Shown: one piece after another, positions 956 to 27,900 of the stretch
How the letters are laid out: the number at the start of each line of letters is the position of its first letter
Numbering within the stretch: position 1 is the first letter of the stretch
Origin: Mesostigma viride
Lineage: Eukaryota; Streptophyta; Mesostigmatophyceae; Mesostigmatales; Mesostigmataceae
Length of the DNA: 64,000 nt
Direction: 5' to 3'
Assembly (NCBI GenBank): GCA_009746045.1
Contig: RPFO01000084.1
Location: 1,486,618-1,550,617 of the forward strand
Program-made: the position numbers and the translations under genes
The notes under the pieces: model-generated
What the model was told of the DNA's origin: nothing
What the model saw: only the letters and a program-made list of their open reading frames with translations
Databases searched by the model: none

Positions 956-960
956 TGTAA
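956..960 (+). promoter_or_regulatory. TGTAA polyadenylation signal of RPL32
   Basis: TGTAA lies 176 bp after the RPL32 stop codon. TGTAA is the usual poly(A) signal of chlorophyte nuclear genes, so the transcript probably ends some 10-20 bases further on. The motif is short, and the call rests on its position behind a sure gene. Confidence 0.6.
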
Positions 961-975
961 ACTTGTGAATAAACT

Positions 976-3233: not shown

Positions 3234-3558
3234 AGTGCCCCTTCTAGGCTCATATGCCCCTTCTGTGCTAGGTTTACGTTGGTAAAAGGTTTACGGTGCG
3301 CCGAGCTATGGATGCCGAGAATGCTCATAACTTTTGATTCCGGGCATGAAATTTGGTCGGGTAAATTGCTACAGACTCGCTTTTTGATGACGAACACGCT
3401 GATCTAATTTTTGGCAGCCATCGCCAAGGATTTCGAAAGTTATCGCCGGCGGCCTGCCCAGCAGATATCGCTATTTTTCTGCACGTTATGGCGGCACCAC
3501 GCACGTGAGCCGTGCGCCTGCGCCCCCTGCCATCGTCTAGGTGCTATTAAACGTAGCC

Positions 3559-6329: not shown

Positions 6330-6678
6330 GCAGCGTAGGATAGCATTTGTAGGACACCTTGCCCGCACTAGCCAGGTCGACACCACCCTTGGTCTGGCCG
6401 GCCCCCTGTGGCTTGGCCAGCCAGGGCGGCATATTCTGACCTGGCCTGGCCCCGCGGACATTCCCAAAAGGGTAGGGAAACCTGTCACCAACTACGTTCA
6501 GATGTTGCTGGACGACCTAGTGGTCCCAGCCCAGTTTGAGCACCGCATACACTCTCTCTCCCGTCTTTGGACTGTCATGCAGGACAAGACGCGGTGGAAG
6601 AAGATTGTCAAGGCGCACACGCCCGACCCTGTGGGCAAGCCACCTCCCCCCAAGCGGAGGAGGCGTTTTGATGAGTAG
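6330..6678 (+). pseudogene. LINE ORF2 C-terminal end, out of frame
   Basis: Reads QRRIAFVGHLARTSQVDT, then GRHILTWPGP and HTPDPVGKPPPPKRRRR, ending at TAG 6676-6678. Fragments of the same C-terminus occur at 8402-8760 (minus) and 13139-13365. The junction with the endonuclease part lies in TAGGCAGCGTAGG (about 6327), a stretch also present in the undeleted copy (minus strand near 8750), so the deletion breakpoint is well located. Confidence 0.85.
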
Positions 6679-6800
6679 TGTAGTTAGGATTTTCTAGATA
6701 GCCTAGCGTTAGTATAGTTCGACCACGCGGCTTCCTCCACCCCATCCATCATGGAATATGTGCTACATGACCTCCCCACGGAGGCATGTTATAATTTAAT

Positions 6801-7025
6801 TTAATTTAATTTTTAATGCCCCTTCTCAGGGCTATGTGCTACATATACTCCCAACGGAGTTATGTTCCTAATTAATTAATTAATTAATCATCGGGAGGGT
6901 GGCTCATCATAGGCACACATGTACATGACTAAAAATGCTAGGCCTCAGCTGGTATAGTGCCTGTAGTAGGCGGGCATGTACAAGGCCACTGTCTAACTAT
7001 TCTACACTACTGCTACTGTATTCCC
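6801..7025. repeat. LINE/foldback-type 3' tail with (AATT)n
   Basis: Contains GCCCCTTCTCAGGG, the ACTCCCAACGGAGT motif and a TTAATTAATTAA run. It is the reverse complement of the tail at 2640-2750. No coding sequence is seen. Confidence 0.5.
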
Positions 7026-7162
7026 CTAGGCTGGGGCTTCTGGGGTCGCTGGGGCCGCGGGGGTCGAGGGGGTCGCGTGCCAGGGCTTGTGGCCGACGTA
7101 GATGGCCGCCCCCTTCCAGTACACCGGCTGGCCCGCCTTGGTCTGCCGGAGCTGGAGGTCAA
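7026..7162 (-). pseudogene. LINE ORF1 C-terminal fragment
   Basis: The minus strand reads LQLRQTKAGQPVYWKGAAIY, then VGHKPWHATP, ending PEAPA and TAG. It aligns with the end of the ORF1 at 11340-11456 (LQLRQSARGKPVYWRGAVIH). Only the last ~45 codons remain. They are bounded by a TTAATTAA run at 7160 and a TAG at 7026-7028. Confidence 0.7.
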
Positions 7163-7337
7163 TTAATTAATTAATTAGACTCGTGCTCCCGTTGGGGAGT
7201 CACGGAGCATTAACCCCGATGGATGGATGGATGGGTGCAAACAGTCCTACCGGTCTAATCGATCTACATCAGCTACCTACTACATCTATCTAACAGCATT
7301 CTAACTACAACATCTATCTAGACAGCCTCACGCTGCC

Positions 7338-8290
7338 CTAGGGGAGCTGTCTGGCGTGCCTCCCACGGGATTGCACACGCGGGCGCTTCCCCACTGGGGG
7401 GGGCTCGTTGTCCTCTATGACCTGGGCCCACTTGGCCTTGTCCATCATCTTCTTCCAAATCACGGAGAGGCCTAGGCCCCCCATGTCCTCTACTAGCTGT
7501 TCTTTGAAGGTGCGGGCCTTGCGGCGTCTAACATCACTGGGCCCGGCCCACGTCAGGAGGTGCCGGCCAGGCTGGGCTGGTCGCAGTCCTGCGGGGGGGC
7601 CACGTGAGGTGTCTACCTGGTTGGTGCGAGCTAGGTGCCCTACTAGCTGCAGGCGTCGCTGCTTAATGGTGCTGGTGATATATGGCATGCCCTGGTACAG
7701 GTCCTCATTGCGGACATGAGCAGCATATCCTACTCTGAAAGTGGAACGCAGCATGTTGGTGACCGCGCCGTCCAGCTTGCGGGCCAGGTCGGCGGTGAGG
7801 GTCCACGTCTCGGCCCCATACGTGAGAACAGGAAGGACGAGGACCTTGAACAGGTCCTGTTTCTCGATCTTGCCCAGGGGCTTGCGCCACAGGGCCCGGT
7901 ACTGGCGTAAAGCGTGCCAGGCGAGGGAGATGCGATGGTCCACATCAACCTCGCAGCTGGGGAGCAGGCTGCCCAGCAGCTTGACGCGGTCCCGATACAG
8001 GACTTGAGAGCTGGAGGTAGGTCGGCCATAGCTCCCGTCGCCGTTGTTGCTGCGCCAGGGTCAAGTCGTCGTCCACGGTGAAGGGAGTCTTCTCGAGCCG
8101 CTTGCGGCGTCGGAGAAACGAAATCTTGTCCGCTGGGCTCTCAAAGATGAGAAGAAGCGGAGGCGCCCCTGCCTTACCCCGCGCGCGGGGGAGGCGGTGG
8201 GCGGTCAGCTTAATCTCACCAAGAAGGCCCATGCGTGCAAGGATTTTGCTCTCAAACGCACGTGCAAGCTTCTCGGAATTCTCACCTTCC
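7338..8290 (-). pseudogene. Family-B LINE remnant: ORF1 end fused to ORF2 end
   Basis: Reading on the minus strand, 8290-~8010 is ORF1 (LARAFESKILARMGLLGEIK, then LPRARGKAGAPP, DDDLTLAQQQRRRELWPTYL). At ~8010 it jumps into late ORF2 (RVKLLGSLLP, LPVLTYGAETWTLTADLA, QLVGHLARTNQVDT), ending at ~7338. Everything from the end of ORF1 through the endonuclease and RT is missing, and the two parts are in different frames. The 3' tail (7160-7330: GGATGGATGGATGGG, CTCCCGTTGGGGAG, TTAATTAATTAA) matches the tail of the LINE ending at ~30150. The 5' end abuts the 3' tail of the neighbouring family-A copy. The apparent N-terminus MCYMISQ is translated from that tail. Confidence 0.8.
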
Positions 8291-8401
8291 TCCTGGGAGA
8301 TCATGTAGCACATATTCCAGGATGGATGGGTGGGGTGGAGGAAGCCGCATAATCGAACTATCCTAACTCTAAGCTATCTAGTCTAGAAAATCCTAACTAC
8401 A

Positions 8402-9128
8402 CTACTCATCAAAACGCCTCCTCCTCTTGGGGGGAGGGGGCTTGCCCACAGGGTCGGGCGTGTGCGCCTTGACAATCTTCTGCCACCGCGTCTTGTCCTG
8501 CATGGCAGTCCAAAGACGGGAGAGAGAGTGGATGCGGTTCTCAAACTGGGCTGGGACCACTAGGTCGTCCAGCAACATCTGGATGTAGTTCGTGACAGGT
8601 TTCCCTACCCTTTTGGGAATGCCCTTGGGGCCAGGCCAGGTCAGAATGTGTCGCCCTTGCTTCGCCAAGCCGCTGGGGGCCGGCCAGACCAAGGGCGGTG
8701 TCGACCTGGCTGGTGCGAGCAAGGTGTCCTACAAATGCTATCCTACGCTGCCTAATCTCATCCGAAATACGAGGCATACCATGATACAAAGACTCTAATG
8801 ACGGGCGCTTGGAAAACCCTACGTTAAGGACCTGTCGGAGCATCCTGTAAACCGTGCCGTTGAGCCTAGCTGCCAGTTTGGGTGTGATGGTCCACGCCTC
8901 GGCGCCATACGTGAGCACCGTGAGGACGAGGACCTTGAAGAGCATGCGCTTGCGGTGCTCGCCCAGGCCCTTCGAGCGCCAGTAGGTGTTGAGCGAACGG
9001 AGCCTGGCCCAGGCCAGGCCGATGCGGGTGTCCACATCGTCTGCAGTGTCAGGAAGCCAGCTCCCCAACAGCTTGAAGCGATCGCGGAACGGGACCTCCG
9101 TCCCGTCGAGCAGGCGCGGCAGCGGGCC
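8402..9128 (-). pseudogene. LINE ORF2 post-RT region
   Basis: Continuation of the RT fragment after the inserted element: PLPRLLDGTEV, FRDRFKLLGSWLPDTADDVD, VLTVLTYGAEAWTITPKLA and RQRRIAFVGHLARTSQVDTA. A frameshift near 8700 then moves to the frame of GRHILTWPGPKGIPKRVGK, ending KRRRRFDE and stop. It is degenerate and non-functional. Confidence 0.85.
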
Positions 9129-9134
9129 GGGCCC

Positions 9135-9628
9135 GCTTCAAATGTTCCGCCGTCCAAGCCAAGTGTGTGACACTTTTTCGCTATTTTCGCAAAAAAAAAA
9201 GTAAAATTTCGCACGAGTTCGCGTGATTTTCGCGTGATTTTCGCAAAATTTTCACACATTTTCGCACGATTTCGCACGATTTCGCACAATTTTGCATGAT
9301 TTCGCACGATTTCGCATGGATTTCAACCAAGGGTCGTTTTGGGGAGTAACGTTTGACAAAATTTCGCATGAATTCACACACGTTGTGCACATCAAAATTT
9401 TTTACCGTCGACATTTTTCACATGAAATTTTGCACGATTTCAGCAAATTTCGCACAATTTCGCACGATTTCAGCAAATTTCACACAATTTCAGCAAATTT
9501 CGCACAATTTCAGCAAATTTCGCACAATTTCGCACGATTTCGCACGACGAATCACTCTGCAGAGTGACGATCGTCGAAAAAGTCCAAAAAACGACAAAAA
9601 GTGTCACACTTTTCGGAACATTTGAAGT
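9135..9628. mobile_element. 494-bp non-autonomous TIR element with 6-bp target duplication
   Basis: The ends are inverted repeats: GCTTCAAATGTTCCG at 9135 and CGGAACATTTGAAGT ending at 9628, with a second matched block (GTGTGACACTTTTT) just inside. GGGCCC lies directly on both sides (9129-9134, 9629-9634), as a target-site duplication would. The interior has no gene; it is a degenerate array of TTTCGCACGATTTCGCA-like units. Removing the element rejoins the LINE sequence on either side, which confirms it is an insertion. A relative with different outer arms is at 61108-61576. Confidence 0.8.
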
Positions 9629-9634
9629 GGGCCC

Positions 9635-10126
9635 GGCCAGCGGTGGTGTACTGGAGGCCCCAATCACCATCGCCTCAGTTTTGACACTAATCTCCAACCC
9701 CACCGCCCGCGCCTCCAGGCCCAGACACTGGTCCAGCCAGGTCTGAATGTGCTCGGGGCTCGCGATGAGGGTGGTGTCATCCGCATAAATCAGGTCGGCA
9801 AGGCGTTAACCAGGTCTAACCCCGCCGTGCTCTGTCTCGTTAAGGATGTCCAAGCCTGGCTCGAACCCCTTAAGAGCAGTAAAGTGCGCACGTGCCCGGC
9901 GCATGACGTGATCCACGACAATAATGAACAGGTATGGGGACAGGACACAACCTTGCCACACCCCGTGGTGAAGGGGGAATGGTGGGGTGGTGCCTTCCGC
10001 AGTCCGCACTACTGCCTGTGAGCCCTCATACAGTCGGCGAATGGCAGCAATAAACGCAGGTGGTACCCGATCCAGAGCTAGGATGGCCCAAAGAGCCTCC
10101 CAGAGAACCGTGTCAAAGGCCTGCAA
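9635..10126 (-). pseudogene. LINE reverse transcriptase fragment
   Basis: Reads AFDTVLWEALWAIL (palm motif A, with catalytic Asp), GVWQGCVLSPYLFIIVVDHV (motif B region) and LIYADDTTLI (motif C, YADD), with a frame break near 9800-9820. It then runs QTWLDQCLGLEARAVGLEIS and TPPLAGP up to the insertion point. It is homologous to the RT at 28500-29238. Confidence 0.85.
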
Positions 10127-13365: not shown

Positions 13366-13405
13366 ACTCTCAACAAGACCGCAAGGACTTCTTTGCAGCG
13401 CTGGA
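13366..13405 (+). pseudogene. 5' stub of the family-B LINE endonuclease, left of the 13.7-kb insertion
   Basis: Encodes QQDRKDFFAALE, which aligns with REEFFESLHD in the endonuclease of the 4809-6329 copy. It continues in frame, after skipping 13406-27136, with ENLANGIPGRNYLALLLDAN at 27137 onward. The last three bases (GGA, 13403-13405) are the target duplication. Confidence 0.85.
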
Positions 13406-13435
13406 GGGTGGTTTGTTTGGGTTAGGACAGATTTG
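13406..13435 (+). repeat. Left 30-bp terminal inverted repeat
   Basis: Starts GGGTGGTTTGTTTGGG and ends GACAGATTTG. It is followed by GGCTGCAGGTCTGTCCTAAA, which recurs in the same orientation just inside the right TIR (27081-27100, one base different). The repeated CTGTCCTAA motif is a candidate transposase-binding site. Confidence 0.85.
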
Positions 13436-14190
13436 GGAGGCTGCAGGTCTGTCCTAAATGAAAATTTGAAAAATGTGTTTTTTGGATGCTGTGGACTTCC
13501 CAAAATAGTTTGATAGAAGGTTTGGGCAAATTTTTGCATTGGTCGAGGAGTTTCAAGTCAATAATTGTGTTATATAATGACAAGTTGCCTTATATGCTGT
13601 AACCAAATGGGCATTCATGATTGTCAAGCTGGTATCTTATGATGAGTAGAGACAATTGCACTCACAGCTTGTAATTTTGCATACTTAAAAATTTAGTGAC
13701 GTGATTGTAATTGCAAAGGCTGGAATGTATCTACTACATGAGACATTATCAAGGAGGATTCTGCATATGTTCCATGTGGTTTTTGCCAGTTTCTGTCAGG
13801 GATTATATCGCGGCTTCGCGGAAAATGACTGACACTTGGGTCTCGTAAATCTCGGGCAAACCTTGAAATGCTCCATGACTGCGCAAATGGACATGGCAAA
13901 AAACTCACATGAGCACACTAGTAATGGTCATAGCAGCCGCAGCAGCGACAAACAACCTCAACAGACTCATGCAGGCCAGGAATATAATCAATCACATCAG
14001 AATCAGAACATGCATTGGTGTTGACAAGTTACATCATGACAATGGTGGCAGCACTATACTGGCATGCATGGCAGAGAGTGAATCAAAAGCACGGCATATC
14101 AGCGGAGAAGCAGCAAAGGAAGCAGCAATGTTGGCAGCCATGGTGCACACATAGAAATCATTGGTAGCAACAATGGTAGCAACCGCGACT
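13436..14190. other. Left subterminal region of the TIR element, no gene
   Basis: AT-richer than its surroundings with no convincing ORF. Only the subterminal CTGTCCTAA repeat is notable. Confidence 0.5.
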
Positions 14191-16512
14191 TCATGTTTCC
14201 ATAGCCTCCGGGGCTCCATCGCTATCGCTGTCCGGACACACTATGTAACGGTGTGCCCGGCGACGACGGGAATCAGACAACATATCTTCTTCAGCCGCGC
14301 CGGCTGCCGCGCGCGCAGGCGCAGGCGAGTCGGGAGGTGCAGCCGCGCAGGTGGCCGCGCGCGCAGGCGCAGGCGAGTTGGCAGGTGCTGCCGCGCGCGC
14401 AGGCGCAGGCGAGTTTGGCAGGTGCTGCCGCGCGCGCAGGCGCAAGCGAGTTGGCAGGTGCAGCCGCGCAGGTGGCCGCGCGCGCAGGCGCAGGCGAGTT
14501 GGCAGGTGCTGCCGCGCGCGCAGGCGCAAGCGAGTTGGCAGGTGCAGCCACGCCGGTGGCCGCAGGCGCGGGCGTAGGCAAGTTGGCAGGTGCTGCCGCG
14601 CGCGCAGGCGCAAGCGAGTTGGCAGGTGCTGCCGCGCGCGCAGGCGCAAGCGAGTACGTTGGCAGGTGCAGCCGCGCCGGTGGCCGCAGGCGCAGGCGCA
14701 GGCGAGTTTGGCAGGTGCTGCCGCGCGCGCAGGCGCAAGCGAGTTGGCAGGTGCAGCCACGCCGGTGGCCGCAGGCGCGGGCGTAGGCAAGTTGGCAGGT
14801 GCTGCCGCGCGCGCAGGCGCAAGCGAGTTGGCAGGTGCTGCCGCGCGCGCAGGCGCAGGCGAGTTGGCAGGTGCTGCCGCGCGCGCAGGCGCAAGCGAGT
14901 TGGCAGGTGCTGCCGCGCGCGCAGGCGCAAGCGAGTTGGCAGGTGCTGCCGCGCGCGCAGGCGCAAGCGAGTTGGCAGGTGCAGCCGCGCCGGTGGCCGC
15001 AGGCGCGGGCGTAGGCGACTTGCTAGGTGCAGCCGCGCCGGTGGTCGTGAGTGCAGGCGCAGGCGAGTTGGCAGGTGCTGCCGCGCGCGCAGGCGCAAGC
15101 GAGTTGGCAGGTGCAGCCGCGCAGGTGGCCGCGCGCGCAGGCGCAGGCGAGTTGGCAGGTGCTGCCGCGCGCGCAGGCGCAGGCGAGTTGGCAGGTGCAG
15201 CCGCGCCGGTGGCCGCAGGCGCGGGCGTAGGCGACTTGCTAGGTGCAGCCGCGCCGGTGGTCGTGAGTGCAGGCGCAGGCGAGTTGGCAGGTGCTGCCGC
15301 GCGCGCAGGCGCAAGCGAGTTGGCAGGTGCAGCCGCGCAGGTGGCCGCGCGCGCAGGCGCAAGCGAGTTGGCAGGTGCTGCCGCGCGCGCAGGCGCAAGC
15401 GAGTTGGCAGGTGCAGCCGCGCCGGTGGCCGCGCGCGCAGGCGCAGGCGAGTTGGCAGGTGCTGCCGCGCGCGCAGGCGCAGGCGAGTTGGCAGGTGCAG
15501 CCGCGCCGGTGGCCGCAGGCGCAGGCGCAGGCGAGTTGGCAGGTGCTGCCGCGCGCGCAGGCGCAGGCGAGTTGGCAGGTGCAGCCACGCCGGCTGCCGC
15601 GCGCGCGGGCGTAGGCGACTTGCTAGGTGCAGCCGCGCCGGTGGTCGTGAGTGCAGGCGCAGGCGAGTTGGCAGGTGCAGCCGCGCCGGTGGCCGCACGC
15701 GCGGGCGCACGCAAGTCACTTGCAGCCTTATCATTCAGGGCGCGCACTGCTGCGCGCAAGTTGGTCGCCACCGCACGTGGGTTGCGCGTGGCTGTGCTGG
15801 TTGCTGCAGGCGCAGGCGGCTTGCGCTTAGTTGTGTCGGCCGTGCCGCGCGCTGCCTCAGGCGAGCTGCGCGCAGTTGCGCTGGTCAGCGCAGCGTGCAC
15901 CTCCGCACGTAAGCGGGACTCGGCAACGGCGATCTCAGACGCTTGCAGAGGAGGGACGGACACACCGGGGCATCCACAGATTTTCTTCCCCAATTCTGGG
16001 AGGTCCACACACGTCACCGCCAGCTCTTCCCATTGAGCACCCCAAAACATAGCCACCTTGCCATGTTCCGTGTCCACAGCTGCCACTTGACCATGGAATC
16101 TTCTAGGACGGTTCACTGTGCGGCCGCCAACGGACTCGTGCACAATCTCATAGCTGCACACAAGTTGTCCTACCAGGCAGAGCTTGCCACCCATCACCTG
16201 CTCCAAGATCGTTTGCCAGCAACGTTCAGCCATGCGCACCACACCCTTGGGAGTTGAAGCTAGTTGCCAGTCAATCGTCGGGTGACCTGCGTCCCTTGGC
16301 ACCTGCTTGAGCGCGGCCAGGCACGCAGCAGACAGCTTTTTCTTGGCATCCAAAGACACCAAGTGGCGCGAGGTGGGCTTCTTCGCCGGGATCCAATAGG
16401 TGAGGATGACCTCGGATGCTGCGATGGTGACTGTGTGGGAGTTTGCGGACGACTTGCTCGGCAGAGGCCATGTGGCGCTGTTCGGGTCCCACTGATGCCA
16501 AGCATCGGTCAT
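14191..16512 (-). CDS. Gene A: unknown protein with Ala/Pro-rich repeats
   Basis: 773 codons, ATG 16512-16510 to TGA 14193-14191. Residues 1-~215 are a unique, probably globular part with beta-rich stretches (HTVTIAASEVILTYWIP, VGQLVCSYEIVHESV, GKVAMFWGAQWEELAVTC). A charged linker follows, then ~480 residues of repeats (12-residue APARAAAPANSP and a 16-residue variant with PAATG). The C-terminus is acidic (DSDSDGAPEAMET). Three one-base shifts within the repeats (near 14703, 14653 and 14412) cancel out, so the end is still reached in frame. There may be an exon upstream: an acceptor-like CCGTGCCAG precedes the ATG, and 16562-16757 is open. It diverges from gene B across a palindrome cluster, inside the 13.7-kb TIR element. 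I do not recognise the family. A role in transposition is inferred only from position. Confidence 0.6.
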   Translation of the reverse strand: MTDAWHQWDPNSATWPLPSKSSANSHTVTIAASEVILTYWIPAKKPTSRHLVSLDAKKKLSAACLAALKQVPRDAGHPTIDWQLASTPKGVVRMAERCWQTILEQVMGGKLCLVGQLVCSYEIVHESVGGRTVNRPRRFHGQVAAVDTEHGKVAMFWGAQWEELAVTCVDLPELGKKICGCPGVSVPPLQASEIAVAESRLRAEVHAALTSATARSSPEAARGTADTTKRKPPAPAATSTATRNPRAVATNLRAAVRALNDKAASDLRAPARAATGAAAPANSPAPALTTTGAAAPSKSPTPARAAAGVAAPANSPAPARAAAPANSPAPAPAATGAAAPANSPAPARAAAPANSPAPARAATGAAAPANSLAPARAAAPANSLAPARAATCAAAPANSLAPARAAAPANSPAPALTTTGAAAPSKSPTPAPAATGAAAPANSPAPARAAAPANSPAPARAATCAAAPANSLAPARAAAPANSPAPALTTTGAAAPSKSPTPAPAATGAAAPANSLAPARAAAPANSLAPARAAAPANSLAPARAAAPANSPAPARAAAPANSLAPARAAAPANLPTPAPAATGVAAPANSLAPARAAAPAKLACACACGHRRGCTCQRTRLRLRARQHLPTRLRLRARQHLPTCLRPRLRPPAWLHLPTRLRLRARQHLPTRLRLRARPPARLHLPTRLRLRARQHLPNSPAPARAAAPANSPAPARAATCAAAPPDSPAPARAAAGAAEEDMLSDSRRRRAHRYIVCPDSDSDGAPEAMET

Positions 16513-16561
16513 GCTCCTGGCACGGTATACAGAGAGGACCAGGTGAGGCTCGCTGCCCCCC

Positions 16562-16757
16562 TCATCGGCAGGCTGCTCTACCGACCTTCTTCACCACCCC
16601 CACCAACATGGGGGGCCAGGGGACGTCGGTGTTGCAGAGCATTTGGCACGTGGGATGCCAGTATAGCACGACCGAGCCCTCCGTCATGGTACGCAAAATC
16701 GTCATCGTCCTCCGAGTCGGAGACAATACCTCCGTCCCACTCGACATGTTCGGCCAT
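16562..16757 (-). other. Possible 5' exon of gene A
   Basis: On the minus strand ATG 16757 starts MAEHVEWDGGIVSDSEDDDD. A second open frame over the same DNA reads SVVLYWHPTCQMLCNTDVP, then WPPMLVGVVKK, before a GT. Either could be spliced to the acceptor before 16512. The splice pattern cannot be settled by eye. Confidence 0.3.
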
Positions 16758-17304
16758 TTTGCTATCCTAGCCTTTATCTCTAACATTTATAAAAGTTTCA
16801 ACCTAAACCAAAAGCAGGACTCCCCCGGCGCTGAATGGATGCCGGACCTCATAAGACGGAGTAAGCAGCTCAGCGCCTATTACTGTCCTGTGTAAACCTA
16901 ATCCCATTTTTGTCATCAATGCTAACAACTCGTCTCCAAATCAACTACGTCGGCTATTTTTCGGCTCCGTGCCTATTCATTTCGGCGTCACTTAATGTTA
17001 AACCACAAAATAATATCGTGCAGTCAGCCTTGTCTGCCATAAATCCAACTATAAACTGCTAAGGTACCGAAAGCTTCACGGCTATTTACGTAATAATGAT
17101 GTGCCGCCAGGGCACGCACTGAAGACTTGAACGCAGGCGCCCCTGTTGGCAGTCACGTGGCGAAGTCGTTGCAACAACTTGCCTAAAAGCACTAAGCAGC
17201 GAACAGCTGGGGAACTTGCCGCCAAAATGTACGCAGCCTGCCTCGGCAGCTGGGGAAGTAATTACTTGCGTCTTGCGGCCAAGATACGCAGCCTGCCTCG
17301 AGAG
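16758..17304. other. Intergenic region between genes A and B
   Basis: No gene. It is AT-richer than its flanks and probably holds the promoter of gene A. The first unpaired copies of the repeat used in the palindromes begin at ~17220. Confidence 0.4.
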
Positions 17305-17690
17305 GGCTGCGTATCTTTGCCGCAGCCTGCCTCACCAGCTAAAAACCTTGCGGCCAAGATACGCAGCCTGCCTCCTCGAGGATATCCTCGAGGAGGCAGG
17401 CTGCGTATCTTGGCCGCAAGGTTTTTAGCTGGTGAGACAGGCTGCGGCAAAGATACGCAGCCTGCCTCGGCAGCTGGGGAAGTAACTACTTGCGTCTTGC
17501 GGCCAAGATACGCAGCCTGCCTCGAGAGTCGAGGCAGGCTGCGTATCTTGGCCGCAAGACGCAAGTAGTTACCCTGGCAGCCAAATGACCAGCTAAAAAC
17601 CTTGCGGCCAAGATACGCAGCCTGCCTCCTCGAGGATATCCTCGAGGAGGCAGGCTGCGTATCTTGGCCGCAAGGTTTTTAGCTGGTGAG
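17305..17690. repeat. Cluster of three palindromes between genes A and B
   Basis: All are built from the same block (CTTGCGGCCAAGATACGCAG) in alternating orientation. Palindrome 1 is centred at 17383.5 (CTCGAGGATATCCTCGAG), arms ~77 bp, about 17305-17461. Palindrome 2 is centred at 17527, arms ~42 bp. Palindrome 3 is centred at 17637.5, arms ~50 bp and nearly perfect. Further single copies flank the cluster (17270-17300, 17730-17765). Such DNA can extrude as hairpins or cruciforms. Its place between two divergent genes of a transposon suggests a regulatory or replication role, but that is inference. Confidence 0.8.
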
Positions 17691-17906
17691 GCAGGCTGCG
17701 GCAAAGATACGCAGCCTGCCTCGAGAGGGCTGCGTATCTTGGCCGCAAGACGCAAGTAGTTACTACAGCTGCAGCCAAATGACGCCGCAGCCTCTTGCCT
17801 ATATTCTAAGTTCCAGATCCCGCGCACATTGACTCGATAGTCGATACATTGCAGCGTGCAGCGCCCAGCAAACGAAGGTTAAATCGCAGCCGGCATTATT
17901 GGAAGG

Positions 17907-20835
17907 TTGCGTGCAATCTTTGTCTATTTTCCGGTGGTTAAATCTGTAGCAAGCGAAGAATGCAGGGGTCAAGCGGCAGCCTGCTACGCAGGCGATAGAT
18001 GCAAGAAATTGCCCGGCGCTGATCATGCAACCGGATTTGATAGTGTAAATGAGCTGCTGGGCGGAGCCAACCATCCATGCTCAGGCCAGTGTGGCAAGCA
18101 CTTGCATGGGCTGTGCACCGGGATGTTTAGGGATGCATCGGCGGGTGAGGATGGCACAGAGTGGACCTGCCAGGAGTGTGGCGGCCCTTGGCCGCCTACC
18201 GCCATCAGCAAGGAGGCCTCGCCTGTCGATTTTAAGGAAAAGGTGGTCGACGCCCAACTGGCCGGCCTTGGTGCTCTTTATTCGCTGGGCGGCAAGGGCA
18301 AGGTCGTTAAGGTTCCATCACGGAAACTCGTTAAGCTAGCCAAAGTCGTGGATGGAAGGGTCGACGATGGTGAGCTGGGTTCTGGTGATAATATTGCATG
18401 ACGAGGGTCATGTCGATGATGATGCAACGGGTGGTGGCGTCGAGGAGAAGAACGGCCCAGGCGGTGTTGCGCTTGGTGGTGGCGTCGAGGAGGAGAGCGG
18501 CGCAGGCGGCAATGGTGCGATGGGTGATGGCGAGGAGGAAAAGAACGGCGCAGGCGGCAATGGTGCGATGGGTGATGGCGAGGAGGAAAAGAACGGCGCA
18601 GGCGGCAATGGTGCGATGGGTGATGGCGAGGAGGAAAAGAACGGCGCAGGCTATGGTGCGATGGGTGATGGCGAGGAGGAAAAGAACGGCGCAGGCAAGG
18701 GTGCGATGGGTGATGGCAATCAGGACAAGAGCGGCCAAGGTGATGCAGCTTTGCGTGCTGCGATGGGCCCCACGGTTGGCAAGCATGCTGTTGGCGGCGC
18801 GCACATTCCCGTGGTTGAGCGCGACGCCTCCAAGAAGGAGAACACCCCGGGCCCTGCAGCTGGTACCTTTCGGGCTTCGGCGTCGCGTCATTTCGATGTC
18901 GGCGACACAAGAAAAGAACTAGCTTTTTCTCCTCCACCGGCAGGGCCGGGGATGCACAAAACACCAGGCGGTGCTTCCACCAGCGACAGCGAGGATGATA
19001 TCGTGGCCCTTGCAATCCCCGAATGGCCTCATGTGGGGGTGGTAGTGGGGGCAATCACGAGCTCGTCAATCTGCGCGCATTTTGTGAGGCAGAGCCGCTA
19101 CAAGAAATTTAAAAACTTGCTCGACCGACTCAAAGGCAGCCCAACCAGGCGACCGTCCGCGATCGGATTTTTCGACGCAGTGGTCATCGTTGTCAACGAC
19201 AAGAATGCCACCACGTTTCCCACTACCCTGGGGTTGGAGCACAAGGGCGTTCTCCCATCATCCGCTTGGAATGAGGACATGCAGGCGGTGATGAGTTGGG
19301 CCATCAAGAACAAGGCGGACCTGCTGCCCCAGATATTGAGTGCTGGCCCACCGCCATTCATCTTGTCCGCTGAGCAGTTTCCAGGATCGGCCCTCTTGGC
19401 GAAATACCCGGCTACGCTGCCACGTCTGCCAGCTTGCATAACACAAGACTCTGACATGCCCGACCCACAAATTGCAGGGCTGCCCGCGTTGCAGGAGGTC
19501 ACCAACGTGCATGGGCGCGGCAAGCAGCCTGCCAAAGAAGCTGCGGCGACGAAACCAGTCAAGCGCCAGCGCCGCTCAGAAAGCGGCTCAGCGCCTGCCA
19601 AGCAGCCTGACGCCCCGGCTGAAAATTCGAAGGGGATGGCAGCGCTGCTGCAACAATTCGACAGCATGATGAAGCAGCAACAGCAACAGCAACAGCAGCA
19701 ATTTAATGCCATGATGACAAAGCTGCAGCAGCAGCAGCAGCAACGTCAGCAGCAGCAGCAGCGACTGCTGCAGAAGCATAAAGAGGCGGCGGCGGCAGTG
19801 GCAGCGGGGGCGGCAGCCGCCGCACCCACCAAAGCAGCGGTGGCGGCAGCCGGTGTGCCCACCACGGCAGCGGCGGCAGCGGCGGCAGCGGTGCCGGCAG
19901 CCAGTGCGCCCCCTGCGGCAACAGCGGCAGCGGTGCCGGCACCAGACTATGCGCCACGCGAGGCGCCGCGCATGTATGTGCCATACGAATCTGCGCCACG
20001 CGAGGCGCCGCGCATGTATGTGCCGTACGAATCTGAGCCACGCGAGGCGCCGCGCATGTATGTGCCATGTGAATCTGCGCCACGCGAGGCGCCGCACATG
20101 TATGTGCCATGCGAATCTGCGCCACGCGAGGCACCGCGCATGTATGTGCCGTACGAATCTGCGCCACGCGAGGCGCCGCGCATGTATGTGCCATGCGAAT
20201 CCGCGCCACGCGAGGCGCCGCGCATGTATGTGCCATACAAATCTGCGCCACGCGAGGCGCCGCGCATGTATGTGCCATGCGAATCTGCGCCGCGCATGTA
20301 TGTGCCATGCGAATCTGCGCCACGCGAGGCGCCGCGCATGTATGTGCCATGTGAATCTGCGCCACGCGAGGCGCCGCACATGTATGTGCCATGCGAATCT
20401 GCGCCACGCGAGGCACCGCGCATGTATGTGCCGTACGAATCTGCGCCACGCGAGGCGCCGCGCATGTATGTGCCATGTGAATCTGCGCCACGCGAGGCGC
20501 CGCACATGTATGTGCCATGCGAATCTGCGCCACGCGAGGCACCGCGCATGTATGTGCCGTACGAATCTGCGCCACGCGAGGCGCCGCGCATGTATGTGCC
20601 ATGCGAATTTGCGCCACGCGAGGCGCCGCGCATGTATGTGCCATACGAATCTGCGCCACGCGAGGCGCCGCGCATGTATGTGCCATGTGAATCTGCGCCA
20701 CGCGAGGCGCCGCGCATGTATGTGCCATGTGAATCTGCGCCACGCGAGGCGCCGCACATGTATGTGCCATGTGAATCTGCGCCACGCGAGGCGCCACGCA
20801 TGTATGTGCCATACGAATTTGCGCCACCGCGTTAG
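17907..20835 (+). CDS. Gene B: PHD-like finger, poly-Gln and 14-residue repeat protein (two frames)
   Basis: Two overlapping open frames look like one gene. Frame 1 (17907-18401, no ATG, so an upstream exon is likely) has a Cys/His cluster: CYAGDRCKKLPG, HPCSGQCGKHLHGLC, EWTCQECGG. That is the C..C-C..C-H..C-W.C..C order of a PHD finger. It stops at TGA 18399-18401. Frame 2 (to TAG 20833-20835) continues with DEGHVDDDATGGG; omitting the T at 18399 would join GDNIA to DEGHV smoothly. Then come acidic Gly-rich repeats (GNGAMGDGEEEKNGAG, 18430-18740), a unique central part (18980-19480, e.g. VGAITSSSICAHFVRQSRYK), a basic patch KPVKRQRRSE (NLS-like), poly-Gln (19670-19760), poly-Ala, and ~20 copies of a 14-residue unit (APREAPRMYVPCES, 19951-20829). 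A nuclear, chromatin-reading protein is plausible. The family is not recognised. Confidence 0.55.
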
Positions 20836-20928
20836 CGTCCCAACAGGACCTTGTGACTAATTATTACTAGAGTAACCCGCTGGCTCCGCCCAGCCCAAAG
20901 CAGGGTCCCTTTTTTTGGCAGTACTTTG

Positions 20929-21335
20929 CCCCGCTGCCCGCTGCCCGCTGCCCGCTGCCCGCTGCCCGCTGCCCGCTGCCCGCTGCCCGCTGCCCGCTGC
21001 CCGCTGCCCGCTGCCCGCTGCCCGCTGCCCGCTGCCCGCTGCCCGCTGCCCGCTACCCGCTGCCCGCTGCCCGCTGCCCGCTGCCCGCTGCCCGCTGCCC
21101 GCTGCCCGCTGCCCGCTGCCCGCAGCCCGCTGCCCGCTGCCCGCTGCCCGCTGCCCGCTGCCCGCTGCCCGATGCCCGATGCCCGATGCCCGCTGCCCGC
21201 TGCCCGCTGCCCGCTGCCCGCTGCCCGCTGCCCGCAGCCCGCTGCCCGCTGCCCGCTGCCCGCTGCGCGCTGCCCGCTGCCCGCTGCCCGCTGCCCGCTG
21301 CCCGCTGCGCGCTGCCCGCTGCCCGCTGCCCGCTG
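20929..21335. repeat. (CCCGCTG)n 7-bp tandem array, about 58 copies
   Basis: An almost pure 7-bp repeat with scattered variants (CCCGATG, CCCGCAG, GCGCGCTG, CCCGCTA). It starts about 95 bp after the gene B stop. Its open frames (Leu-Pro-Ala-Ala-Arg-Cys-Pro) follow from the sequence composition. Confidence 0.95.
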
Positions 21336-21545
21336 GAATAGGATGTTTTATGACATGCTTAGATCACCGCCCATTCATGCATTATAGGACATGGCATTAT
21401 TATTAAGAGCAACATCATGGGTATTGTGGTAGTGCAACATCTTGGCTAATCAGGACAACGATTTATTTCTCATACAACTAGTAACGGCTTGTACTTACAC
21501 GACGTTGGACCGCCTTGCGTCAAGGAATAGTTGTCTCACTTAATC
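21336..21545. other. Spacer between the 7-bp array and the Penelope-like element
   Basis: No gene. GTTGTCTC at 21530-21537 is the reverse complement of GAGACAAC at 21553-21560, just inside the retroelement repeat. Confidence 0.4.
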
Positions 21546-22299
21546 TATCAAAGAGACAACCAGCGCAGGCCAGAAATCGGGAGAATCCGGACCATGGTAG
21601 CTCGAGCCTGCCGTTATCTTTTCCGCGTTTTCGAGTCGTTCAGGATGATGAAGATGAATGGTGATGGAAATGTGTATCCTTGTGCATTGAAATTATGGCT
21701 GGCTTACGTGTGGAGCGACTAGATGACCTAGACGGTGGGGCCGGAAACAGCATGCTTGATCAGGGCGTGTGTTTCTAGCCTAACTGGCCGGGAGTGTCTA
21801 GTGGTGAGCACCATTGCTGCGATCGCTCTCCCACCATTTACGAGGAAATACCCGCAAATGGAAAACCACTGAAAAGGTCTAGCTAGTCAGTCATCACGTT
21901 AGCCATGCCATGATTCCAAACGTCCAAGAACTGCACACGGTGCAAAGGCAAAAAGCCGGAGGACAGCACTTTCAAATGTGCGGCGGGAACCAAAAGCCCG
22001 CGGATGCCAGAAAACATCGTGTTGCGGCAGCGACGCGACGATGTGGACAACGAATCCAGTGCCAAGCTCGGAACGGCCGCAAAGGAGATCTGGCATCACA
22101 GGGTTCAGATGTGCGGAGATACTATGCGATCCAGCCGGTCCACGACCTGTTTGTAGAGCTTGTGCCAAGGGGCAGCACCGAACAGATGTGGGTGACGTTG
22201 CAAAAAACATCGGACTTGACGGAGCATAATGGCTCGGTCATAGTCTTTGACCAATAAACGCTGCAAGAGTTCAACAAGAGTCGTGATGAAATCAACACG
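21546..22299 (-). repeat. 3' pseudo-LTR of the Penelope-like element
   Basis: 754 bp, identical by eye to 26098-26851. It contains the ORF 3' end (down to 22105) and the 3' UTR. Its outer edge carries GAGACAACCAGCGCAGGCCA, also found alone at 31139-31180. Confidence 0.85.
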
Positions 22300-25161
22300 A
22301 TAAGAACAAAGACGGGAAAAACGATGTAACTGAGAAAGAACAACACCATATTTTGCTGTGTGGGAAAGGAGACTGTGAATATCGGGGTAACGAATAAAAG
22401 GAATTTGCTGGTATTTAGGATCCTTGCGCTTATCATAGATAGCCGTACGCCAGCCCTTCTTGTTATGGGTAATGTTAAGATCGAGGTAATTGCAATGAGT
22501 ATCCTCCGACGTGAGCTTTAATGTGAGGGACGCTTGCGGGTAGATGCCAGGCAGACCAGCGGTGATATACAAATGGGTTGCGAAATCAGGGTTGTCGAAA
22601 GCGATGACATCATCAATGTATCGACATGTATGGATAAAACGCCTGATGAGAACATCATCGTTTGAGGCAATGAGATTCTCCATGAATGCAAGCTCATAAG
22701 TGTATAGATAGAGGTTTGCAAGGAGCCCGGCACAGTTAGTGCCCATAGGGATGCCGATAGCTTGTTGGTATACATTGCCCGCAAAACAGATGAAGGTGTT
22801 ATCAACAAGATAAGAGATCCAATGGACAAGGTCAGCCTTCGTGATAATATAATTATAACCATCCCGCACGATAGCACCTGCCGCGATCCCTGAGAGCCAC
22901 GTTGCCGTGGGCTTGGTCTGAGAAACACGCACGTGCAGGTGGTTGCGCCCGTGAGGCCTACGTGCATACAGACGAGTAAGGAGGCTATCTAAACGAGCTT
23001 TCAAATCGTGCAAATCTAGTGTGGTATATAGAGTGGTGAAATCATAGGTGGCTATGGGCATAGGTATACGTTTCTCTGCTGCTGTCTTAGAACGGCTAAG
23101 GGCGGCAAGGCGTAGGCGTACTTGGGCTGAGTCTATGACGATCCAACTACCAGCGCATTCATACCCGGCATTCGACAGCACCTCCACCCATAATGCATTG
23201 GCTTCGGGGAGAAGAGCATTCAAAGCATGGCAGATGAGTTTCGAGAGAGGCATCAGTGGGGCTGAATGCGACGCAGCAATGGTGCGCAAAGCAACAGGAG
23301 TTTTGTGCAGCTTAAGAGTGAGATACAGATATGGGAACGTAGTGGTGGTGGCGCGTCGCTGCCGCTTAAGGAATGCCCGAGCAAAAATGTTTTGGCTGTG
23401 CAGAAAAGCCCGATGAGCAGCGGTGATACTGGCGGTGGACTGTGCACGCTGAACATAGGTAGGGCTGGACGCCAACTCGTGTTGCAAAGTAGCAAGGTAG
23501 TGCTTCTTGCATATGAAAGCAAAGTTGTTGGCACTCTTGTCAACACACGTGATGATAAAGTCCTGCTTGAAGTGGTCAAGAAGTGCTTTATCTGTGGTGT
23601 TGAGCCAGGTGGTGCGGTGGACCTGCTGGAGACGGTAATCAAGCCTGGTGAGACGTGCATTGCATTCGTGAATGACGGCGCGAAACCACGGTTCCATGGC
23701 AAGGGGAGCAAGCTGTAGGTCCGTGCTCATGGCATTGCAAAATTTGCGCAGTGATGTGGAGAGCAGTGCATTCACCTCTTTGGCACACGTGCGCTGGACC
23801 CACGGCCGAAACTTGGTGCCTTTGGCAAAAAGGTCTACAAGCGTGTGGCTCGGCAGGATGCTGAGGTCAGCGGTCATGACGTGCTGTGAGGTGGGATCAA
23901 GGTACTTGAAATACCGTTGTTGTTGGCAGGGGCAGGGCCCTGCCAAGATGGTGGCCAGCTCGGTGGGCGTTGTATCGCGGCTGACCTTCCCGTTGCTGAA
24001 AACCATTTGTCCCAAGGTGGGAGAGTAATGCCAGGCGGCAATGGGAGTGCCGAAAGTGTTGCGCACCACGAGCGGCATCGCAGCCTGCACTTGCGGCAAA
24101 TGCAGAATGTGTGGCAAACACAGCTCATCCATCGCAGCATGAATGAAAGGTGAGATCAGCAAACGGCGCGGACGCAGTGCATCTGCATTCCCATTGACAC
24201 GGTGCCGAATGATACGTGAGAGAAGGCCTCGCAGACTAGTGGCATGGGAGCGGGGGACTTGCAGATCAGCTGGGGAGCACGACCCGACGGCAATGTGTAA
24301 GCTGGTAAGCTTCTTCAAGCTGCAGGCTTCGAGATAGGATGCATGAAAGTTGCCGCGTTGCATAAGCCGAGACATGTGACGTAAGCAGCGGAGACTGGTG
24401 GAGTAAAGGGAAGGATCGGTGGACACATGTGTGGAAGGTGGAGGGGCCGGGGTGACGCTGGGGGGATAGGGGCGATATGGGTGGAGATTGTGCTTCAGAC
24501 GCCAGGCACGGATGAACATAAGAGGGCGGGGACGGAGGGGAGGCGGGCGGCGGCGAGACCGAGCTTTGAAACTCTTGCCTTCAATGCAAAAACCGTGGGG
24601 CAGAAATGCATGTAACATTCGTTTCCAAAACGTTTCCCGATGCCCTGCGGCTTTGCGAAAAGCGGCGCCGGTAAAGGTGCCGGGGACATGTTCCAAGGGG
24701 ACGACTCGCCAATCCCACCACCCGTATTGGGCCATGGCGCCATGTAGGGGGGTGTCGTCGTTGGCGGCAGGGCGGCCAATATGAAGGCGGCGTGCCGCTC
24801 GGACATGTTCCTGAAAACGCGTCCAGGCATCCCGTTGCGTCTGGCCAACGTAGATACGCTGAGGGTACCTGCGGTTGTAAATGGCATAAATGACGCGATG
24901 GGTGCTTACGGGGTGTGGGCGAGTGGAGTTGGTAAGCGACAAATGCGTGCGCTGTAAGCGCCGGAGGCGACGTAGAGTATGGTCATCCTTGCAGTGATGG
25001 TTATGGCGCGTGTTGATGCGACAACGCTTCCGCCATGCCTGTGAGGAGATACGATAGGGGAACTGCCGAGAAATAGCAGTGTACTTCCGGTAATCAATGC
25101 CACTGGATTGCCGTATTCTGTGGAGGGTAAGAGCATGCCAGAAAGTCATAAGGTGTTTCAT
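22105..25161 (-). CDS. Penelope-like reverse transcriptase with N-terminal GIY-YIG endonuclease
   Basis: 1,018 codons, ATG 25161-25159, TGA 22107-22105, uninterrupted. Residues ~90-185 are a GIY-YIG nuclease: IYAIYNRRYPQRIYVGQTQR holds the paired IY/YVG strands, followed by R115, H119 and a Glu near 176 (HRETFWKRM). A long linker follows, with conserved-looking blocks (ITCVDKSANNFAFICKKHY, FPYLYLTLKLHKTP). The RT has motif A YDFTTLYTTLDL (706 on), GIPMGTNCAGLLANLYLYTY (803 on), the catalytic RYIDDVIAFD (YIDD 848-851) and NYLDLNITHNKKGW. This is a Penelope-like RT, related to telomerase. Most such elements carry GIY-YIG at the C-terminus; an N-terminal placement is, to my knowledge, typical of the Chlamys group of green algae. 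All catalytic landmarks are present, so it may be active. Confidence 0.9.
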   Translation of the reverse strand: MKHLMTFWHALTLHRIRQSSGIDYRKYTAISRQFPYRISSQAWRKRCRINTRHNHHCKDDHTLRRLRRLQRTHLSLTNSTRPHPVSTHRVIYAIYNRRYPQRIYVGQTQRDAWTRFQEHVRAARRLHIGRPAANDDTPLHGAMAQYGWWDWRVVPLEHVPGTFTGAAFRKAAGHRETFWKRMLHAFLPHGFCIEGKSFKARSRRRPPPLRPRPLMFIRAWRLKHNLHPYRPYPPSVTPAPPPSTHVSTDPSLYSTSLRCLRHMSRLMQRGNFHASYLEACSLKKLTSLHIAVGSCSPADLQVPRSHATSLRGLLSRIIRHRVNGNADALRPRRLLISPFIHAAMDELCLPHILHLPQVQAAMPLVVRNTFGTPIAAWHYSPTLGQMVFSNGKVSRDTTPTELATILAGPCPCQQQRYFKYLDPTSQHVMTADLSILPSHTLVDLFAKGTKFRPWVQRTCAKEVNALLSTSLRKFCNAMSTDLQLAPLAMEPWFRAVIHECNARLTRLDYRLQQVHRTTWLNTTDKALLDHFKQDFIITCVDKSANNFAFICKKHYLATLQHELASSPTYVQRAQSTASITAAHRAFLHSQNIFARAFLKRQRRATTTTFPYLYLTLKLHKTPVALRTIAASHSAPLMPLSKLICHALNALLPEANALWVEVLSNAGYECAGSWIVIDSAQVRLRLAALSRSKTAAEKRIPMPIATYDFTTLYTTLDLHDLKARLDSLLTRLYARRPHGRNHLHVRVSQTKPTATWLSGIAAGAIVRDGYNYIITKADLVHWISYLVDNTFICFAGNVYQQAIGIPMGTNCAGLLANLYLYTYELAFMENLIASNDDVLIRRFIHTCRYIDDVIAFDNPDFATHLYITAGLPGIYPQASLTLKLTSEDTHCNYLDLNITHNKKGWRTAIYDKRKDPKYQQIPFIRYPDIHSLLSHTAKYGVVLSQLHRFSRLCSYRVDFITTLVELLQRLLVKDYDRAIMLRQVRCFLQRHPHLFGAAPWHKLYKQVVDRLDRIVSPHI

Positions 25162-26097
25162 GATGATTCAGATGCACTGAGAGCTAAGACATCAAACAGA
25201 ACCAGAGCGGAGCATATTGAGGTAAGTCAATATTCACTGCGTAACACCCGTTACGCGATAGCGGTGGTCCATGATGCATCTCCCCGGGGCAGGATGTGGC
25301 TAACAACACAGCTGAATGGACTCGGAACATGTGGATTCCCAGTGGGGGGGCCTTCCAATTGTCATACTTGACACCTCTTTCCTGTAACGAAAAGATTTCC
25401 CTTCTTCATGTTCCAGATGAGTCACCGTGCTCCTGCCTTTGTGTTTTTTTGGCGTTTGTAAAGAGATATGGGAGGGTAAACAAAAGCAAAGGCTGATATT
25501 GCCGTGTGGGGGGCCCGATCCTTGGTTAGTCTCTCAAGTGCCCACAGAAAAACACGAGAGTAGCACACACAGCGCGCAGCCCAGCCTAGCTCCCTCAGTA
25601 AAAGTAAAAGAAAAAGGACAAGAACAGCAAAACAAACGAGAACAAGAAAAAGAACAAAACACAGACACGTAGTGCAATGTGAGCGGAATGATGGAGGAAG
25701 GTGAGAGGGGGACATCGTATTGAATGTGTAGGCATTGAGGCAGCCGAAGCGTCCCATCCCCGGGTACATTCGTGGCTTTCAAAAAAGCCACAACCTGCGT
25801 GGAAGAGGAAAATGCAGGAACGATGAGTATGATCCTGAAAACGAGGTTGAGGAAACGCGGAGAGGAAATGCCGGCCGCTGAAACGATTCCGATGGAACTA
25901 TGGGTTTCGCCGACATGAGGCGGTGCAGCTGACTATCTCTATGGTGTCGTGTGTGACCGGGAGTGCCGGTTCACGTGCGCACTCGTCGGACTAGCCCGAC
26001 GACATGTGTGCTTGGTTGCCCACGGCTGAAATCCTCTTGCCCGTCATGCAAAGGCCACGCCTCCTAGCCGAAAACGAACTATATTCAACCAATCTAA
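25162..26097 (-). other. 5' untranslated part of the Penelope-like element
   Basis: No ORF of note. It separates the 5' pseudo-LTR from the RT start codon and probably carries the internal leader. Confidence 0.5.
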
Positions 26098-26851
26098 TAT
26101 CAAAGAGACAACCAGCGCAGGCCAGAAATCGGGAGAATCCGGACCATGGTAGCTCGAGCCTGCCGTTATCTTTTCCGCGTTTTCGAGTCGTTCAGGATGA
26201 TGAAGATGAATGGTGATGGAAATGTGTATCCTTGTGCATTGAAATTATGGCTGGCTTACGTGTGGAGCGACTAGATGACCTAGACGGTGGGGCCGGAAAC
26301 AGCATGCTTGATCAGGGCGTGTGTTTCTAGCCTAACTGGCCGGGAGTGTCTAGTGGTGAGCACCATTGCTGCGATCGCTCTCCCACCATTTACGAGGAAA
26401 TACCCGCAAATGGAAAACCACTGAAAAGGTCTAGCTAGTCAGTCATCACGTTAGCCATGCCATGATTCCAAACGTCCAAGAACTGCACACGGTGCAAAGG
26501 CAAAAAGCCGGAGGACAGCACTTTCAAATGTGCGGCGGGAACCAAAAGCCCGCGGATGCCAGAAAACATCGTGTTGCGGCAGCGACGCGACGATGTGGAC
26601 AACGAATCCAGTGCCAAGCTCGGAACGGCCGCAAAGGAGATCTGGCATCACAGGGTTCAGATGTGCGGAGATACTATGCGATCCAGCCGGTCCACGACCT
26701 GTTTGTAGAGCTTGTGCCAAGGGGCAGCACCGAACAGATGTGGGTGACGTTGCAAAAAACATCGGACTTGACGGAGCATAATGGCTCGGTCATAGTCTTT
26801 GACCAATAAACGCTGCAAGAGTTCAACAAGAGTCGTGATGAAATCAACACG
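26098..26851 (-). repeat. 5' pseudo-LTR of the Penelope-like element
   Basis: Second 754-bp copy. It encodes a detached duplicate of the last 65 codons of the RT ORF (up to the same stop), as expected from a partial tandem arrangement. Confidence 0.85.
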
Positions 26852-27103
26852 TTCTATGCTCACGTGACGCAGTCTACATGATTACTAATTCCTTTAAACT
26901 AAATTAATTGATGTGCATTGTGCATAACTCAATGCTGAGAACATTTGTGTATTCACATACATACACGTGAAACAAGACGGCAGTTATATACACATAAAAA
27001 CAGTTGAATCCCATTCAAAAAATTATCATGCAGAAGCAAGCATGCGTAAGGCACCAATAAGCTAATGTTTTCACGCTTTGGCTGCAGGACTGTCCTAAAT
27101 GGA
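26852..27103. other. Right subterminal region of the TIR element
   Basis: AT-rich, no gene. It holds TATGCTCACGTGACGCAGTC at 26856-26875 (also at 30188) and the subterminal CTGTCCTAA motif at 27090-27098. Confidence 0.5.
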
Positions 27104-27133
27104 CAAATCTGTCCTAACCCAAACAAACCACCC
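27104..27133 (-). repeat. Right 30-bp terminal inverted repeat
   Basis: Exact reverse complement of 13406-13435 (ends CCCAAACAAACCACCC), directly followed by the GGA duplication at 27134-27136. Confidence 0.85.
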
Positions 27134-27900
27134 GGAGAACCTGGCGAACGGCATCCCTGGTCGCAACTACCTCGCTCTGCTGCTGGACGCCAACGCCACG
27201 CTACCACCGGGTACTGGCGGATGTCAGCACGCCCCCAACGGTACGGTCTCCAATGCCAACACTGAACTTTTTGCTGATTTGCTTACGACATGCGATTTGG
27301 TCACTGCCAACACCCGCTTTCCACATAGTCCAGATGCTTTGGTCACACACACCTCGCCAACTGGCACTGAACGCTGCATTGACTATGTTGTAATGCGCAA
27401 TTAAGCGTCATCAAGGATCTGTATTAGCTGCTCGCTCGCATGTGATCCCCCTGGTGCGCTCCGATCATCGCATCGTCACCGCCCGCATCCGCCTGCGATT
27501 CCCCTCGCCCTTTCGTAAGCACGTGGCACCACCTGATTTGCGCACACTTCAGTTGCTTGAGAAATCTGACGACGCTCTGGAGGACTTCCCTGAAAAACGC
27601 GCCCACAAGCGCGCGGCAGAGGCGTTCGTCGACGCGCTGGACACAGTCCCTGCCAGCCACGCGCAGCTGTTCGCTGCCGGCCCGGTACCGGCCCTTCGGC
27701 ACCTCGCTGACAAGCTGCCCGCGGCCGGGGCCCTGCTGCCCCCCCGCCGCCCGCCCCGCTTCACCAGCCTGCACCGGCTCCCCGCCGTCATCCGGCAGGC
27801 CAGGCAAGCCCTGCGCGACAACAGCGACCCCGCCCGCTACGCCCGCCTCAAAGCCGATTACCACTCGGCCATCCGGCAGGCGACCAACGGAGCAGGAGGA
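27134..27900 (+). pseudogene. LINE ORF2: endonuclease end and linker
   Basis: 27137-27404 reads ENLANGIPGRNYLALLLDAN, then ERCIDYVVMRN and a stop (TAA 27402-27404). After a shift, 27442 onward gives VRSDHRIVTARIRLRF (the SDH catalytic motif) and the linker to ~27900 (VPASHAQLFAAGPVPALRHL, SLHRLPAVIRQARQAL). At least one stop and two shifts make it non-coding. Confidence 0.8.

Follow-up and report, generated by a model that had tools for sequence, protein, structure and literature searches.

A probable internally deleted member of a DUF7869-encoding family of cut-and-paste DNA transposons in Mesostigma viride

CACTA/EnSpm elements carry two genes, TnpD and TnpA, and their terminal inverted repeats (TIRs) start with CACTA or CACTG. 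In PIF/Harbinger elements the second protein is Myb-like, KDZ/Zisupton elements produce 8-bp target site duplications (TSDs), and Academ elements encode a transposase with accessory nuclease or helicase domains. Derivatives of the Ac/Ds and P types have lost the transposase core by internal deletion, kept their ends and been amplified in trans. In the literature, the CxxC and Hx3-4H motifs of the CMC group, which includes CACTA/EnSpm, are described as following the second Asp and preceding the last acidic residue (PMC12730594); PIF/Harbinger elements show a 3-bp TSD (PMC2213677) and need two element proteins for movement (PMC2836001); KDZ elements are large with very long transposases (PMC12477816); and Zisupton and Kyakuja are reported from Chlamydomonas species (PMC8226300).

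The locus compared with these groups lies in a stretch of 64,000 nucleotides of contig RPFO01000084.1, the whole of which is called the window. It contains a 13.7-kb insert, which is read here, at a probability of about 0.86, as a non-autonomous member, carrying an internal deletion, of a DUF7869 cut-and-paste DNA transposon family named F1.

The insert, its ends and the interrupted LINE

The insert is bounded by 30-nt inverted repeats at 13406-13435 (plus strand) and 27104-27133 (minus strand), which are 100% complementary, lie 13,668 nt apart and were identified as TIRs by the inverted-repeat match and by genome-wide counts. Flank comparison places GGA on both sides, at 13403-13405 on the left and at 27134-27136 on the right, so that the element proper runs from 13406 to 27133 (13,728 bp). 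The perfect TIRs and the GGA duplication described by a sequence-only reading of this DNA were thus borne out. Near the left end the motif TTAGGACA (13422-13429) is followed by its inverse TGTCCTAA (13450-13457), the pair spanning 13422-13457, while at the right end, within 27091-27117, TGTCCTAA occurs at 27091-27098 and again inside the TIR at 27110-27117. These sites, a pair of which is also present at the transposase-side end of a second family, F2, are candidate transposase-binding sites.

Joined across the insert, the flanks read ...RKDFFAALENLANGIPGRNYLALLLDANATLPPGTGG... and keep the spacing of a LINE endonuclease, for which the reference is the sequence ...REEFFESLHDLERVTPARHFLVMLLDANATLPVGTAG... 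at window positions 5001-6200, a LINE frame with a Pfam Exo_endo_phos match (E 3.2e-6). The joined 231-nt LINE query gave a single uninterrupted match (query 84-231, 98% identity) in all 40 places scored of 2,444 candidates, and every one of these matches spans the junction at 125/126. The empty sites are paralogous LINE copies, none identified as allelic. Together with the joined flanks, they uphold the earlier claim that removal of the insert rejoins a LINE frame with the spacing of the intact endonuclease.

A nested Penelope-like retroelement of 5,304 bp, delimited by copy alignment and flanked by a TCTAT duplication, occupies 21549-26852 on the minus strand and confirms the nested retroelement seen at first. 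It contains identical 754-bp direct repeats (21546-22299 and 26098-26851) and one ORF of 1020 aa (22105-25167), which from its motifs we take to encode a reverse transcriptase of Penelope-like type, headed at the N terminus by a GIY-YIG-like stretch; the ORF gave no Pfam match up to E 10. The size of 13.7 kb is due to this nested element of 5.3 kb. Of the suggestion that the insert represents a large new family, the part on size did not hold, the median length of 34 TIR pairs being 9.05 kb; as to novelty, the family matched no named transposase model in Pfam.

Copies, target duplications and age of the family

The assembly searched comprises 440 Mb in 2,243 contigs. The left 130 bp of the insert was found at 100% identity in 33 of 40 scored places (101 candidates), and the 30-bp F1 TIR, allowing up to 2 mismatches, occurs at 99 or more genome sites, of which at least 82 are exact. 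Since the same TIR read backward as a control has 0 sites in the 440-Mb genome, these occurrences are not chance. Inverted TIRs within 20 kb of one another form 34 adjacent pairs spanning 8.1-18.9 kb, and the empty sites found are the paralogous ones described above. The refuting condition set by the sequence-only reading, TIRs missing elsewhere and no empty sites, was thus checked with an outcome in its favour.

Target duplications were assessed in these 34 pairs and in two wider ones, C446 (34 kb) and "C347 outer". An exact 3-bp TSD was observed in 31 of the 36 pairs (30 of 34 when the two wider pairs are set aside), as against 28 of 1,260 mispaired flanks (2.2%); the number of pairs matching at 4 bp was 0, and at 8 bp 0 of 36. 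This establishes the insert as a member of a mobile DNA element family with TIRs and a 3-bp TSD, as had been proposed. The five mismatching pairs are L009, L018, L021, C932, which is among the copies with an open gene A described below, and "C347 outer", the last of which is probably not a true TIR pair. The 3-bp match of C921 is ambiguous because this copy sits in a short tandem repeat, where its flanks match at 7 bp too. The duplications vary in sequence, with GGA, TGC, GCG, CCC and CTG among them.

Copies could also multiply as segmental duplications or assembly artefacts without transposition, and C627 and C2167, which have common flanks, are evidently one insertion counted twice, so that at least one copy is duplicated or a haplotype copy. 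Nevertheless, the remaining flanks compared for TSDs differ from one another, the 3-bp duplications are of varied sequence, and all 40 scored paralogs carry the LINE site without interruption, which leaves an origin of the copies without transposition a negligible probability.

The copy L026 matches the window insert at 100% identity over element positions 1-4057. When 21 copies, 20 loci plus the window insert, were compared over 530 bp of gene B, one of the two genes of the element, 19 agreed with L026 to at least 99.6%, and the other two, L012 and L022, had no match there. F1 is a young family, and the window insert moved recently.

Gene A, gene B and the DUF7869 core

Pfam found no transposase in four ORFs of the window copy, the window genes A and B matched nothing above cut-off in Pfam or among PDB sequences, and Rfam gave no match across the window. 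The earlier statement that the insert has no recognisable transposase is true of the window copy, and the reason is that this copy has lost the core of gene A. The remnant of gene A comprises, on the minus strand, an ORF at 14194-16590 for the C-terminal part of a DUF7869 protein followed by Ala/Pro-rich repeats, with the core absent (ORF and copy comparison), and an N-terminal ORF (MAEHVEWDGGIVSDSED...) at 16581-16766, read in L026. Copy comparison places the deletion junction at 16679-16682, a 4-bp CTCC microhomology where about 2.4 kb of gene A is gone and ...GACCGAGCCCTCC abuts GTCATGG... in the window. With up to 2 substitutions allowed in 25 nt, the same junction was found in 16 of the 20 copies fetched, while L019 and L022 have about 2.4 kb between GACCGAGCCCTCC and GTCATGG. 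L012 and L014 have neither the standard deletion nor the 2.4-kb form and were left out of both counts: L014 has a different deletion, and the homology of L012 to L026 covers only its first 261 bp. The recurrence of the junction points to the amplification of a single crippled lineage, presumably by enzyme acting in trans.

The gene A frame stays open across the extra 2.4 kb, for 1466 aa in L019 and 1367 aa in L022. A later insertion of the 2.4 kb was considered and rejected, since it extends the gene A frame and the core is also found in two other families, F2 and F3. In L019, gene A matches Pfam DUF7869 (PF25273) with E 3.5e-14 and 53.3 bits against a cut-off of 26, the match spanning only model positions 36-118 of 192; the window copy itself is without this domain in Pfam. 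When the 892-aa core was used in tblastn, the F1 copies on C932, C1646, C1713, C2122 and C1624 spanned all of it (1-892), free of stops and with an identity of about 100%, and further F1 places were interrupted or partial. Four open copies measure 10,110, 10,200, 10,364 and 10,447 bp from TIR to TIR, and C2122 measures 18,929 bp. Open copies have TSDs of their own: GCA (C1713, the same as L019), ATG (C1646, the same as L022), TTG (C1624) and TTA (C2122).

Gene B is divergent from gene A and is broken as well. Its first part (17883-18401, plus strand) is an ORF with a PHD-finger-like stretch below the Pfam PHD threshold (E 0.0086; 16.5 bits, cut-off 24), and its second part (18340-20835, plus strand) is an ORF with acidic, Gln-rich and APREAPRMYVPYES repeats. 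A 4-bp insertion relative to the full-length L019, placed by alignment at 18395-18398, frameshifts the gene; the deletion copies listed have gene B broken into two frames at residue 155, and in 8 of 8 deletion copies compared with L019, the window included, the split is caused by this insertion at an identical position. The two "unknown cargo genes" of the sequence-only reading are accordingly replaced by a transposase-like gene remnant and a frameshifted second gene, and its suspicion that the insert is non-autonomous fits the window copy, in which the core of A is deleted and B frameshifted. With both genes broken in the amplified lineage, the enzyme would have been needed from elsewhere.

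In other copies gene B lies in one frame, of 900 aa in C932 and C1713, of 846 aa in C1690 and, with a longer repeat, of 922 aa in C2122, C1824:700 and C1106:10.86 Mb. In C1624 it is spread over two frames. C1646 has an open gene A and an unrecognisable gene B, its element positions 6083-9800 being without match to L026 through either replacement or a nested insertion. B may therefore be dispensable in some copies. Between the divergent genes, at 17225-17776, lie clustered compound inverted repeats with arms up to 129 nt, a region that varies in length between copies and is rearranged in many of those fetched. Directly past gene B, at 20930-21335, are 58 copies of the 7-bp unit CCCGCTG, a stretch that is variable between copies of the element.

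Relatives of the core were found by tblastn of the 892-aa F1 core in F2 (55-56% identical, at least 12 places) and in F3 (50% identical, at least 27 places), and all three cores match DUF7869 above the Pfam cut-off. Aligned with one core per family, they share invariant MD, CxxC, SxxxDKxDHAKT, DGGSENRN and GHTHADxDQKFGVL blocks. A candidate triad in F1 is D371, D463 and D502, spaced D-x91-D-x38-D, with D504 as an alternative third residue; CETC (313-316) and HLIQLH (337-342) precede D371, an order that depends on the triad chosen. Read by eye, the succession of hydrophobic strands and helices would fit an RNase H fold. The Nei-Gojobori dN/dS is 0.373/1.359 between F1 and F2 and 0.450/2.301 between F1 and F3, a comparison close to saturation, and the core is under purifying selection. 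In this genome 150 of 150 scored places exceeded the DUF7869 cut-off (275 candidates), and the profile had a match in 0 of 14 control genomes.

F2 has TIRs of its own, found at 46 or more genome sites against 0 for the control, and an exact 3-bp TSD was found in 11 of 12 chosen pairs, C1502 being the exception; at least four more pairs (C1591, C335 and two on C1690) lie outside this sample. The F2 ends align by eye with those of F1, including TTAGGACA and its inverse. A homolog of the first part of gene B, 53% identical over residues 7-126, occurs at seven F2-type places; in all six elements for which both are listed, this homolog and the core are on opposite strands. That F1 and F2 keep the divergent gene pair at 54% core identity is the best evidence that both genes belong to the machinery. 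For F3 and for a further DUF7869 family with a 753-aa ORF, a comparison of two copies of each beyond the gene did not reveal the ends, so the 3-bp TSD rule covers two families. The latter, shorter family (L103, L104) has many copies and a C-terminal part that is F1-like by eye; the mutual identity of L103 and L104 stops near a tandem repeat. Two elements of 4.1-4.2 kb (G000:C1835:268677-272912 and G000:C1921:41089-45236), with GAGGTGTT ends related to those of F2 and with 3-bp duplications, are likely non-autonomous relatives.

The DUF7869 protein of about 1,460 aa encoded by gene A is likely the transposase of F1, and its pattern of conserved residues would be consistent with catalysis. A different reading is that DUF7869 is a passenger and that F1 and F2 are moved by a transposase of a named superfamily, such as CACTA/EnSpm, encoded elsewhere. 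Such a source would suit the 3-bp TSD, which is common to CACTA/EnSpm, and the loss of the core from 16 of the 20 fetched copies. A mere passenger, however, would hardly be expected to be paired with B in one and the same divergent arrangement in two families whose TIRs differ, to remain under purifying selection, to be multi-copy with all 150 scored places above cut-off, or to show the three-Asp pattern expected for a DDE/D enzyme, and the ends read GRGKKGTT... rather than CACTA. The passenger role is therefore improbable, and gene A itself is kept as the likely source of the transposase.

Searches outside the genome gave the core no relatives. It had no match in a sequence search of the PDB and no significant solved structure, and none in phages, IMG/VR or GTDB genomes; a scan of viral contigs with a degenerate core motif gave 0 matches. 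A pollen allergen in a PDB profile search (E 0.63) and an NCBIfam anti-sigma family (E 0.025) were taken as chance, as were five bacterial-contig matches of the degenerate motif, whose translations were without the other conserved blocks.

Comparison with named groups and a proposed history

Named superfamilies were compared by Pfam profiles and by several general criteria, and on the defining features compared F1 and F2 do not correspond to CACTA/EnSpm, PIF/Harbinger or KDZ/Zisupton. F1 resembles CACTA/EnSpm in its 3-bp TSD, TIRs, large elements and a transposase gene with a second gene, but the F1 and F2 ends, GGGTGGTT and GAGTGGTT (GRGKKGTT...), are not CACTA; the TIRs start with GGGTGG in F1 and with GAGTGG, GAGTTG or GAGGTG in F2. 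No Transposase_21 or other CMC profile matched the cores in Pfam. With PIF/Harbinger, F1 has in common the 3-bp TSD and two element proteins, whereas the second protein of F1 is PHD-like, its TSDs do not follow the TWA/TNA target preference, and DDE_Tnp_4 had no Pfam match in the cores. In Pfam the cores had no match to a KDZ transposase profile, nor, among its general models, to an Academ transposase or its nuclease or helicase domains. From Ac/Ds- and P-type derivatives, which the window lineage resembles in its deleted core, retained ends and the trans-amplification proposed here, it differs in being frameshifted in the second gene also. The window copy is itself an ordinary defective derivative, like many known ones with internal deletions.

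F1 may nonetheless fall within one of the known superfamilies, CMC/CACTA, KDZ, Academ or PIF/Harbinger, as a divergent member whose catalytic domain Pfam files under another name. The 3-bp TSD with two genes recalls CACTA and PIF/Harbinger, and the very long transposase and large elements recall KDZ/Zisupton (PMC12477816). On the other hand, apart from DUF7869 no transposase model in Pfam reached E 1 with the three cores; the CxxC and Hx4H of F1 precede the first of the candidate catalytic Asp residues, unlike the CMC arrangement given in PMC12730594; and the TSDs are neither TWA nor, as in KDZ/Zisupton, 8 bp but 3 bp. Membership in a known superfamily thus appears unlikely, at perhaps one chance in a handful. 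Tentatively, and at somewhat less than even odds, the DUF7869 proteins may instead be transposases of an unrecognised superfamily, characterised by GRGKKGTT ends, subterminal TTAGGACA sites, 3-bp duplications free of sequence constraint and a partner gene in divergent orientation, whose PHD-like finger might steer insertion through recognition of chromatin.

A course of events can be proposed for the insert as a deleted member of F1. The autonomous form would be about 10.1-10.4 kb long, with the two divergent genes A and B, B being a protein of about 900 aa with a PHD-like stretch. Protein A would presumably bind the TTAGGACA motifs at the element ends, cut the TIR tips (GGGTGG...) and join them to target DNA at positions staggered by 3 bp, which would leave 3-bp duplications whose sequence is not fixed. 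A single ancestor may then have lost the core of A and acquired the frameshift in B, and this crippled lineage may have multiplied with enzyme from intact copies; one member would have inserted into the LINE in the window, where the Penelope-like element arrived afterwards.

In Pfam, DUF7869 is a domain of unknown function, and it was named in no paper found by a full-text literature search; the mobile-element context is an addition made here. The intact F1 relatives suggest its likely job, which is testable because the domain occurs in recently moved elements with defined ends and a shared partner gene, and the open F1 copies are material for a transposition assay. If the assignment is true, annotators could reclassify "unknown" repeats wherever DUF7869 is multi-copy. 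With at least 150 DUF7869 places, the host devotes to such elements a sizeable part of its mobilome.

Two further repeats were observed in the window. An 18-kb tandem array at 37802-55898, with 423 copies of a 43-bp unit at 97% matches and a strong AT skew, is possibly a centromeric or other satellite. A short run of units of AGGGTTT, the plant-type telomere repeat, lies internally at 57672-57697.
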